Source: a virus
IMG/VR virus record: IMGVR_UViG_3300031997_000016
Coordinates: 1 to 51,076 of that record
Length of the DNA stretch: 51,076 nucleotides
Strand: one strand, 5' to 3'
Shown here: one piece after another, positions 2,765-41,939 of the stretch
How the letters are laid out: the number at the start of each line of letters is the position of its first letter
How positions within the stretch are numbered: position 1 is the first letter of the stretch
Made by a program: the position numbers and the translations under genes
Notes under the pieces: generated by a model
What the model saw: only the letters and a program-made list of their open reading frames with translations
What the model was told of the DNA's origin: nothing
Databases searched by the model: none

Positions 2765-3632
2765 TAATTTTGCACTGGATTGCTATCGAAATTGTCCAGC
2801 TTATTATAACTGGCGCATAATCAAGGGACTCATCAAGCCTGGAGAGAAGAAAATTGCTGCAAGCTTCGGGAGTGCATTTCACTCTGGCTTGCAGGTTTGG
2901 TATGAGAATAACATGAGCAGTGAGAGCAAAGGAGATGCAATAGCCAAGTTCATTGATGAGTTCGCTCTTGCAGAGTCAGTTGAGGATGACAAGAGGACTC
3001 TTGCAAAGGGACTTGACATCTTGAATAAGTACTACCAGCGCTATGAGCCCGAACCTTATGATGTAGTGAAGGCTGAGGTAGGCATATCATTTGAGTTGGG
3101 AGAGTGGCTTTACAAGGGAAGGATTGATCTGATAATGGAAGAGAGAGGGACTCGTGCCATCTATGGATTCGATCACAAGACAACAAGTGACTTGTCACGC
3201 ACAGTGGTGAAGCCTCACTGCCAAATAACAGGGTATGTTTATGGGCTGGTGCAGCAGTACGAGAATGTATTGGGGTATATGCTGAATATGATTGGAGTTT
3301 ACAAGACGGATAAGAGAAGGGATAAGGATAGTGGGCATTTAGTGGAGAGGGACATATTTCTCAGAATACCAACATCACGATCACTGGAGGAACTAGATGA
3401 GTGGAAGAGAGAAACCCTCTGGTATCTTCACCAGGTGGAAGAGAGCCTGGAACATAATATCTGGCCGAAGCACGCTCCCAGTTATTGCCAAGCTTACAGG
3501 GGCCGCTGTCCTTATCTCGATCTCTGTAATGTAAGCACTCCTGATATGATCGAGAGGATGATTGAGGCAGGGCTTTATGTGATTGAGCCCTGGAAAGCCT
3601 ACGAGCCAGTAGTGATAGGAGAGGAGGAGTGA
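2748..3632 (+). CDS. PD-(D/E)XK nuclease, RecB/Cas4-like
   Basis: The fold is indicated by YKGRIDLIM (about residues 123-131), which carries the metal-binding Asp, followed by GFDHKTTS, the D-x-K core of PD-(D/E)XK nucleases. A Cys near the N-terminus (CPAYY) and a C-terminal cluster YCQAYRGRCPYLDLC look like the iron-sulfur cluster ligands of the RecB/AddB/Cas4 group. Two adjacent ATGs (2745 and 2748) are possible starts; the second has better spacing from GGAGG. The gene lies one base upstream of a Sak4-like ATPase, so it probably acts as an exonuclease in phage recombination or DNA processing. Confidence 0.85.
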   Translation: MEREIDNFALDCYRNCPAYYNWRIIKGLIKPGEKKIAASFGSAFHSGLQVWYENNMSSESKGDAIAKFIDEFALAESVEDDKRTLAKGLDILNKYYQRYEPEPYDVVKAEVGISFELGEWLYKGRIDLIMEERGTRAIYGFDHKTTSDLSRTVVKPHCQITGYVYGLVQQYENVLGYMLNMIGVYKTDKRRDKDSGHLVERDIFLRIPTSRSLEELDEWKRETLWYLHQVEESLEHNIWPKHAPSYCQAYRGRCPYLDLCNVSTPDMIERMIEAGLYVIEPWKAYEPVVIGEEE

Positions 3633-3633
3633 G

Positions 3634-4473
3634 ATGCCTAAAAAGAACATACTGCAGATAGGCCCACCAGGGAGCGGAAAGACGGGCAACTTGGAGACGC
3701 TCCCAGACTCAGTAGTCCACTTGTCATTTGACCCAGGAGGTTGGGAGACTCTCAAGCGAGATATACCAAGACAGGGGAGAAGGAAGCGCAACTTAGTTGG
3801 GCCTCTTACCACGTTTAGGGAGTGGGCAAAGCTCAATCAATCACTAAGCCCAGATGATATACTCGTTGTAGACTATAGCAGCCTACCTGTTCGAGTTAGC
3901 GTAGATAAGTTCCAGCAGTATGAGATCGCTCCTTGGAATAACTTCTTGATGGATTTTAATGAGATTGAGAAGATAGGGGGAGCCCCAGTTATAGAGAGAC
4001 GAGGCATTTGTAACGTGGCTGTAGACTCACTAACCTGGATGCAATGGACTATCTTAGAGGGAGTGGTTTATCTTGAATCTCGTACTGATAAGGGAACCTG
4101 TGTTAATGACTACCGCATTGCAATAGAGAAGATGAAGGAGATAGTCAAGGCGTTTTGCCAACTCCCTTTTAACTTCATCCTCACAGCTCATGTGGAGAGT
4201 GAGAAGGATGATGTAACTGGGAAGATTAAGGAGCAGGTGCTTATCTATGGGAAGAACTTACCTGATCTCATTGTGTCAATGATTAGTGATGTTTATTATT
4301 GTGGTGTAGACATGAGCACAGGGACGATAAGGAGCTACCTTTACACAGCTCCTCAAATGTTCCTGAAGATCGTGAGACAGAGGAGTTTCGATAACCTACC
4401 AATTAAGATGGAGGCAGACTTCTCCAAGCTTTACAAGGCAGGGGGGCTTTACTGTGGAGGAGGAGAGAAATGA
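3634..4473 (+). CDS. Sak4-like P-loop ATPase (AAA_24 type), recombination
   Basis: A Walker A motif GPPGSGKT sits at residues 10-17. The later blocks FNFILTAHVESEKDD and LIVSMISDVYYC resemble the RecA-related AAA_24 proteins that phages use for single-strand annealing (Sak4). The hydrophobic strand ending in Asp, ICNVAVDSLTW (about residues 126-136), fits Walker B. It follows the nuclease gene by one base and precedes a possible ssDNA-binding protein at 5278, the usual Sak4 arrangement. The family assignment is strong; the annealing role is inferred from the family. Confidence 0.8.
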   Translation: MPKKNILQIGPPGSGKTGNLETLPDSVVHLSFDPGGWETLKRDIPRQGRRKRNLVGPLTTFREWAKLNQSLSPDDILVVDYSSLPVRVSVDKFQQYEIAPWNNFLMDFNEIEKIGGAPVIERRGICNVAVDSLTWMQWTILEGVVYLESRTDKGTCVNDYRIAIEKMKEIVKAFCQLPFNFILTAHVESEKDDVTGKIKEQVLIYGKNLPDLIVSMISDVYYCGVDMSTGTIRSYLYTAPQMFLKIVRQRSFDNLPIKMEADFSKLYKAGGLYCGGGEK

Positions 4474-4589
4474 CTTTCATTTGTGAAAGGTGCCATATAG
4501 AGGTTCACTATGATGAGTCCTTTTATACTCCTCTAGAGGAGCTTCTCTGTGAGGATTGTTACTTGGACACAATAGAGGAGGGAGAATAG
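4470..4589 (+). CDS. Tiny zinc-finger protein, 39 aa
   Basis: The ATG overlaps the TGA of the ATPase gene (ATGA). The 39 codons encode CERCHIEVHYDES and CEDCYLDTIEEGE, two CxxC pairs 27 residues apart that form a likely zinc finger. GGAGGAGAG lies just before the start. The next gene also begins with a zinc-ribbon motif, so this may be one of a set of small adaptor-type proteins. Confidence 0.7.
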   Translation: MTFICERCHIEVHYDESFYTPLEELLCEDCYLDTIEEGE

Positions 4590-39057: not shown

Positions 39058-39775
39058 CGATCATGTTATCGCTGAGTGCTTTATCTCAGCTTCTCATAGT
39101 TTCCTATGAGTCCAGACTATGTCATCACTCTCAACTCAAGAGTGCCGGAGGCTCTTGCTCAAGATTATCGTTGGGACTCACCTGAGTAGTCGTTACACCT
39201 TCCTCAGAACCTTTGCCCCCTGAGGCTTGGCTCGGCGTTAGCATGCCTACCAACTCCTTGCCTAGTAGGTTTAGCTGTTCACCGAATTCATCCGGTTTTC
39301 CATGAAAGAGAAGAGACTCTTCATTATTGAGTTGCTTACTTATCTCATAACTAAGCTCCCTCATTTTGATAAGCTCATCCGATAGTCTGTAGCCTCCCCT
39401 TGTCATAAGGTTCTCCTGAAACCACATCACAAAGGAGGCTCTCTTTTTCTTTGTTATGAGATAAGGAAAAATTTCTCTCAGAAAAGCTATAGCCTGCTTG
39501 GAGTATAACCTCGCTGTCCAACCACCCTCCTGCTTATCAAACTTGGCACCGGCCTTAGAAGCAAAGTACTCTATTGTCTCCTTAGAATTCATGCCAATTT
39601 TAACACAAACGTAGTGAGCAAGAGTAGTCTTAGAAAGAGCTCTTCTAACTCCACTTCTTACATAATGCGATCTGTAACCCTTACAGATTATAACAGAGCC
39701 CTCTCCGTCAATCAAACCAGCAAGATATGCTTTTTCTGTTTCAGTCATCCTCTCCTCCACGCTGCTCTCTAAAGA
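39058..39775 (-). ncRNA. Group I intron in the major capsid gene
   Basis: P1 is CTGT|TCT paired with AGAGCAG, with the splice after the U of the U-G pair. P7 strands are read as AACGACTACTC and ACATAGTCT (GACTA with TAGTC). P8-like CACTCT/AGAGTG, P9 CTCATAG-GAAA-CTATGAG and a GCTGAG/CTCAGC hairpin follow. The intron ends in G at 39058. Removing 718 nt joins GT to C, restoring Q-P-V-L-Y-G-K in frame over 315 codons including the stop. The core resembles the IA-type introns of T-even-like phage genes. It carries the endonuclease gene in its 5' part, with the core overlapping its C-terminal codons. Confidence 0.88.
39131..39748 (-). CDS. LAGLIDADG homing endonuclease inside the intron
   Basis: The N-terminus TEKAYLAGLIDGEGSVIICK holds a LAGLIDADG motif (LAGLIDGEG), and VRRALSKTTLAHYVCVKIGM with SKETIEYFASKAGAKFDKQE complete the single-motif fold (dimeric type). 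The ATG at 39748 follows GGAGG at 39754-39758, only 28 bases into the intron. The last ~45 residues are encoded by the conserved intron core and are probably a free C-terminal tail. The enzyme would cut intronless capsid alleles and promote intron spread. Confidence 0.9.
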   Translation of the reverse strand: MTETEKAYLAGLIDGEGSVIICKGYRSHYVRSGVRRALSKTTLAHYVCVKIGMNSKETIEYFASKAGAKFDKQEGGWTARLYSKQAIAFLREIFPYLITKKKRASFVMWFQENLMTRGGYRLSDELIKMRELSYEISKQLNNEESLLFHGKPDEFGEQLNLLGKELVGMLTPSQASGGKGSEEGVTTTQVSPNDNLEQEPPALLS

Positions 39776-39930
39776 ACAGGCTGATCAATCATCCTACCAC
39801 CTTTGAGTTCGACCTTAGCCTTAGCCATCATCCTGGTTAGGAACTTGTTAGCTATAAAGACCTGGTCGATCAAGTGTGGCAAGTACTGATCTTTTACTGC
39901 GGTATCTAGATCCGTAAAAGGTACTGCCAT
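39776..39930 (-). CDS. Major capsid protein, exon 1
   Basis: From ATG 39930 with GGAGG just before it, 51 codons plus GT run MAVPFTDLDTAVKDQYLPHL to RMIDQPV, ending at the 5' splice site. The start FTDLDT with NKFLTRMMAKAKVELKGGR is typical of short-tailed phage HK97-fold capsid proteins. Translation of unspliced RNA would stop at a TAG three codons later, so intron removal is required for capsid production. Confidence 0.85.
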
Positions 39931-41525: not shown

Positions 41526-41939
41526 TTACTGTTCTTGTTCCTCATACTGAACACCTGGCTTGTTAATCACTCGCATTCTAGTACGTATAGCATCTCTTAA
41601 CTTATCATTCTCCTCTGTATGCCTATGTCCACAATCCCCAACAGGAAAAGTAATGGCCAACTCTGCTTGCTCTCTCTTGATAATGAGTTTATTCACAACC
41701 TTTACAAGAACCTCCTTAGCTACTTTACCCATCCACACTAGTCTCCCATAGTCGCGCCACTGCAAATCAGGCCCTTTGCTAAAATACAAATGTCCACCAA
41801 ATTGCCTCTGCAAAAACTCTAAGGATTCCTTGTTCGTATTGGTAATACTGAGTTGCAAGTTGTATCGAAGCCCAATGAAAATACATCCCTCTCCATCTAT
41901 CATTCCGGCAAGATAGAATAAATTACAATTTTCGCACAT
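41526..41939 (-). CDS. Freestanding LAGLIDADG homing endonuclease, 137 aa
   Basis: The motif FYLAGMIDGEGCIFIGLRYN (residues 8-27) is LAGLIDADG (LAGMIDGEG) and NTNKESLEFLQRQFGGHLYF follows as in the intron-encoded enzyme. Single motif, so likely a homodimer. No group I core was found on either side, so it appears to stand alone in the portal-scaffold interval. It begins 19 bases after the 43-aa basic gene and has a weak ribosome-binding site. Confidence 0.85.
   Translation of the reverse strand: MCENCNLFYLAGMIDGEGCIFIGLRYNLQLSITNTNKESLEFLQRQFGGHLYFSKGPDLQWRDYGRLVWMGKVAKEVLVKVVNKLIIKREQAELAITFPVGDCGHRHTEENDKLRDAIRTRMRVINKPGVQYEEQEQ

Follow-up and report, generated by a model that had tools for sequence, protein, structure and literature searches.

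In mycobacteriophage LittleE, the major capsid gene is interrupted by a group I intron of about 0.8 kb whose splicing was demonstrated by RT-PCR and N-terminal sequencing (PMC3706429, which also cites the lactococcal phage Tuc2009). The exon ends in U, the intron ends in G, and the intron contains an I-CreI-like LAGLIDADG endonuclease. The split capsid gene, both boundary bases and the type of endonuclease recur at the locus described here. In LittleE, however, the endonuclease is encoded on the opposite strand, whereas here its gene has the orientation of the capsid gene and its frame continues across the ribozyme core; the LittleE capsid protein is HK97-like, and the one studied here is of SU10 type (PMC3706429).

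In crAss-like phages, which belong to a different phage order than our virus, the major capsid gene is one of several core genes reported to contain group I introns, and LAGLIDADG domains, such as that in the present intron, have been reported in some crAss-like genes (PMC7886860). At the DNA level, the P7-P9 region of our intron matches intron-bearing genes of staphylococcal phages (Twort/Sep1-like, group IA). Unlike the capsid intron studied here with its LAGLIDADG gene, the introns of Twort/Sep1-like phages and of Bastillevirinae reside mostly in genes for polymerases, lysis and nucleotide metabolism, and the enzymes they encode are mostly of the HNH or GIY-YIG type (PMC11878797). On the protein side, I-CreI, I-MsoI and I-CvuI share with our predicted enzyme a single LAGLIDADG motif and a homologous fold; it is about 16-18% identical to these solved enzymes and differs from them by a tail of about 64 residues encoded in the ribozyme core.

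An earlier note on this DNA had presented an intron in a structural gene as unusual. This view needs tempering: with LittleE and crAss-like phages on record and dozens of candidates in our survey, the surprise was only partly warranted. Capsid-gene group I introns with a LAGLIDADG enzyme are known already; coding through the whole core and frequent insertion into capsid genes are the aspects that merit follow-up.

The interrupted capsid gene and its intron

The sequence studied, referred to below as the window, is a 51,076-base virus record from IMG/VR. The capsid gene is found on the minus strand in two open stretches, flanked by a scaffold-like gene at 40791-40012 and by another gene at 38209-37457. 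The features of the locus are as follows.

39776..39930, minus strand: exon 1 of the major capsid gene, 155 nt, ATG start, ending in ...CAGCCTGT; N-terminus matching the uninterrupted homologues of loci L003 and L237
38268..39057, minus strand: exon 2 of the major capsid gene, 790 nt including the stop; PHROG 9953 match of the joined protein
39058..39775, minus strand: predicted group I intron, 718 nt, last base G39058; RF00028 match, junction and P1/P10
39093..39380, minus strand: group I catalytic core, P2-P9; RF00028, 66.1 bits
39762..39779, minus strand: P1, exon CUGU and intron UCU with AGAGCAG; 7/7 pairs, U.G at the 5′ splice site
39767..39771, minus strand: P10 guide strand UAGAG, holding the UAG (39771-39769) that closes exon 1 on unspliced RNA
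39187..39191, minus strand: P7 5′ strand GACUA; Rfam alignment
39115..39119, minus strand: P7 3′ strand UAGUC; Rfam alignment
39093..39110, minus strand: P9 hairpin CUCAUAG-GAAA-CUAUGAG, 7 bp, GAAA tetraloop; Rfam alignment and folding
39131..39748, minus strand: LAGLIDADG endonuclease ORF of 205 aa, beginning at ATG 39748; frame uninterrupted across P2-P8 of the core
39752..39758, minus strand: Shine-Dalgarno-like GGAGGAG before the endonuclease ATG; read directly from the sequence

Translation of exon 1 from the ATG at 39930 would, on unspliced RNA, run into the UAG just beyond the proposed 5′ splice site, in line with the stop described in the earlier note. Exon 2 is open down to 38268, and its earliest possible start, TTG 38981, omits the conserved N-terminal part of the protein. 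Joining the exons after U39776 and after G39058 gives 314 amino acids plus a stop, which accounts for the 315 in-frame codons proposed before. The joined protein matches the major head protein family PHROG 9953 over residues 5-311 (E = 1.4e-45) and scores 28.5 bits against the Pfam model SU10_MCP (cut-off 24.1), so that the capsid identity first put forward from the letters alone holds. A portal gene (43846-42092) and a terminase-like gene (46472-44691) lie upstream; in annotated relatives, too, the portal gene is followed by a small gene, a scaffold-type gene and then the capsid gene. Both its sequence profile and its position after portal and scaffold genes thus mark the product as an SU10-type major capsid protein. 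No second capsid gene was recognised among the scanned head-module genes (Pfam, PHROG), and the capsid protein had no match in a scan of bacterial genomes.

The earlier note had also claimed a group I core and proposed a covariance-model search, which we carried out. Rfam RF00028 is matched over its full length at 39380-39093 with 66.1 bits (gathering score 50; E = 1.2e-14 for the whole window), the sole RNA match in the capsid region. The P3-P8 core includes P7, P1 places U39776 in a U.G pair, and the element ends in G39058; the P1, P7, GAAA-capped P9 and final G that had been pointed out all fit the proposed boundaries. An open frame alone is insufficient to fix the junction, since 15 U/G junction pairs near the boundaries keep the frame open. 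What fixes it at 39776/39057, as previously claimed, is the U.G pair of P1, a 5-bp P10 between the guide UAGAG and exon 2 bases +2 to +6 (39056-39052), and a gap-free match to intronless relatives. Two points speak against the intron reading: two of the P3 pairs are non-standard as aligned by Rfam, and P10 is mismatched at +1. Between P7 and P3, where subgroup IA introns have the extra helices P7.1/P7.2, lies a 33-nt insert that may form two short hairpins, as judged from folding and from an alignment to the general RF00028 model.

Two homologues are continuous at the insertion site. The capsid protein of L003 is 48% identical, encoded in a single open frame and gap-free at the junction. That of L237 is 52-55% identical and continuous across the site; the L237 gene has its own group I core (71.8 bits) and LAGLIDADG gene elsewhere, between the equivalents of residues 86 and 87. 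The same intron is present in another IMG/VR contig, which is 99.97% identical and derives from the same virus. No intronless allele with more than 60% protein identity was found that would point to recent homing.

We conclude, with a probability of roughly 95%, that the major capsid gene contains a group I intron that would be spliced out and be mobile through its LAGLIDADG endonuclease.

The encoded enzyme, a proposed mechanism and other readings

The intron ORF contains the motif YLAGLIDGEG with its acidic residue. Although no Pfam model matched above its cut-off, a profile built from seven sequences matched I-MsoI (E = 1e-20) as well as I-CreI chains (about 1e-9 or better); the single sequence found I-MsoI at 4.5e-5. 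In the AlphaFold model (mean pLDDT 81.9), a LAGLIDADG fold extends to about residue 115 and is followed by helices as far as residue 170 and by 35 disordered residues at the end; its best Foldseek match is I-CvuI (E = 6e-7), with I-MsoI and I-CreI also found. The LAGLIDADG assignment of the earlier note is borne out: the predicted enzyme is an I-CreI/I-MsoI-like LAGLIDADG endonuclease with a homodimer-type fold.

A paralogous LAGLIDADG ORF, 26% identical to the intron ORF, is present at 41526-41939 (minus strand), between the portal gene and a small Pro/Gln-rich gene. No group I core was found near it with Rfam. No match to it was found in L003, where portal and capsid genes are both present, and for this reason the ORF appears to have been inserted as a freestanding gene.

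What can be read in the DNA is the core, helices, reading frames, uninterrupted relatives and enzyme family; that the RNA is spliced, that the enzyme is translated from the precursor and that it cuts and homes we infer. Most likely, the intron excises itself from the late transcript, which would join GU to CC and restore the 314-aa capsid protein. As long as the RNA is unspliced, ribosomes leaving exon 1 would stop at the UAG, which lies about 20 nt ahead of the endonuclease start codon with its strong ribosome-binding site, a spacing that would permit coupled translation of the endonuclease from the precursor. The enzyme should then cut intronless capsid alleles at the exon junction, so that the intron is copied across.

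Other readings of the locus differ in which part of this scheme they give up. If the intron splices while its endonuclease is now mainly a maturase, or inactive, the element would be resident and no longer mobile. Maturase function is frequent among LAGLIDADG intron proteins (PMC3073962, PMC3984707), and the core-encoded tail, modelled as a helix at residues 153-170, could contact RNA. This tail is however acidic (net charge -8), which is not what one expects of a segment that binds RNA, and the model shows the final 35 residues as disordered. The fold, the strong ribosome-binding site and the LAGLIDGEG motif, including its acidic residue, are all intact. We therefore regard loss of mobility as unlikely, and a splicing and mobile intron as the preferred reading.

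A decayed intron or an assembly chimera, in which the capsid gene is broken here and the shell is made from another gene, is suggested by the fact that the contig is a metagenomic virus record read from DNA. We consider it very improbable, as the intron occurs in the two nearly identical contigs, has an intact core, P1 and P10 and separates two exons that are open and conserved; the scan of head-module genes recognised no other capsid gene. Still less probable is that the insertion is something other than an intron. An intein is ruled out by stops in the capsid frame of the insert. A freestanding endonuclease gene followed by re-initiation in exon 2, giving a capsid protein in two pieces, could draw on TTG 38981; it was rejected because starting there would lose the conserved region GG..I..P...YG..SGSYSG. 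The group I core within the insertion argues against both.

LAGLIDADG introns in other capsid genes

Three scans of IMG/VR with LAGLIDADG profiles yielded 240 loci, some of them common to several scans. The endonuclease gene lies at the start of or inside a capsid gene in 31 of the first 80. The capsid families in these 31 are PHROG 267/283 (T7-like), 1357, 334, 9953 and 14242; identities were taken from PHROG matches for representatives and extended by similarity clusters. In 26 distinct loci the endonuclease frame runs into an RF00028 core, and in about 20 of them the exon next to it codes for a capsid protein (15 by direct PHROG match, 5 by similarity to these). As endonucleases from capsid introns had served as seeds for the scans, the share of capsid genes is biased upwards. 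Insertion sites vary between and within capsid families. Related predicted LAGLIDADG introns thus occupy unrelated capsid-gene families at several sites, which suggests that capsid genes are a common home for such introns in uncultured phages. The tree of the endonuclease domain is poorly resolved and does not separate a single from multiple invasions of capsid genes. Weak RF00028 matches on the antisense strand at L146, L148 and L150 were set aside as probably spurious.

Several loci deserve separate mention. In about 22 T7-like loci (L036, L041, L042, L092, L058, L048 and others), a LAGLIDADG gene separates a short N-terminal capsid exon (e.g. MASAAYPGG...FIPSL) from EIWSDE...; a P7/P9-like sequence (GACUAA...GAUAGUC plus a hairpin) is found 3′, without an RF00028 match. 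These are probably group I introns that escape Rfam on account of the inserted gene, and they are treated here as candidates. L051 (2795-4430) has tandem LAGLIDADG genes in one capsid gene, the first with a single motif and the second with two, each followed by P7/P9-like sequence. L129 (reverse strand, 4290-4540) has an 86-bit group I core with no recognised endonuclease, and the frame of the upstream capsid-like exon stays open into this core for 84% of its length. Several group I introns surround one gene (...MKNSLDAAMQGIEGLI...IDQIP...) in L121, L124, L126 and L134; no PHROG or Pfam model recognises its product, possibly an undescribed capsid protein. Finally, Stenotrophomonas phage StenR_269 (L109, OR838459.1) carries at 2977-3426 an annotated 'intron homing endonuclease' placed directly between its scaffold and major capsid genes. 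RF00028 had no match in this record. As a cultured phage, StenR_269 is a possible laboratory model for a capsid-gene intron.

An endonuclease frame through the ribozyme core

Overlap between endonuclease and core has been discussed as 'core creep', the longest case listed being 81 nt (PMC3073962); a paper on Bastillevirinae introns mentions such overlap as well (PMC11878797). We found no report in the open-access literature of overlap with the whole core as a rule. In the window, the endonuclease frame remains open for 250 nt past the core start, that is 87% of the core length; the other two frames stop 3 and 17 nt into it.

We surveyed 34 cores with a LAGLIDADG frame 5′ to them. The endonuclease frame is open through at least 78% of the core in 33 of the 34. 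Its first stop lies at a median of 191 nt into the core, compared with a median of 24 nt and a maximum of 112 nt for the other frames. With one core counted per locus, it is the last frame to close in 25 of 26 loci. When the first 75 and last 25 nt of the core are removed, stops make up 7 of 787 codons in the endonuclease frame versus 155 of 1568 in the others. Counted from the BLAST-defined end of the enzyme domain, the endonuclease frame is last to close in only 27 of 34 cores, so that part of the effect comes from the enzyme domain itself reaching into the core. Most cores that have no endonuclease upstream close early. An open frame was nevertheless seen in two HNH-bearing introns, and the pattern may therefore not be limited to LAGLIDADG enzymes.

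Why the frame stays open may be explained in several ways: ribosomes may act as a switch between enzyme and splicing, the late transcript may gain protection from being translated, the protein tail may be useful in itself, or the arrangement may be inherited and drifting. We tentatively propose, at somewhat less than even odds, that in phage capsid introns of this kind selection keeps the endonuclease frame open through nearly the whole ribozyme, leaving about 200 bases that would serve both as core and as coding sequence. The likely reason would be that ribosomes choose between making the enzyme and allowing capsid splicing, or that translation prevents an early end of late-operon transcription.

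Capsid genes split in this manner are easily mis-annotated as two broken ORFs. Overlap with the whole core offers a concrete test of 'core creep' and of how one RNA is shared between enzyme translation and splicing. The locus described here provides a well-defined case in which assembly of a virus shell appears to depend on RNA self-splicing.
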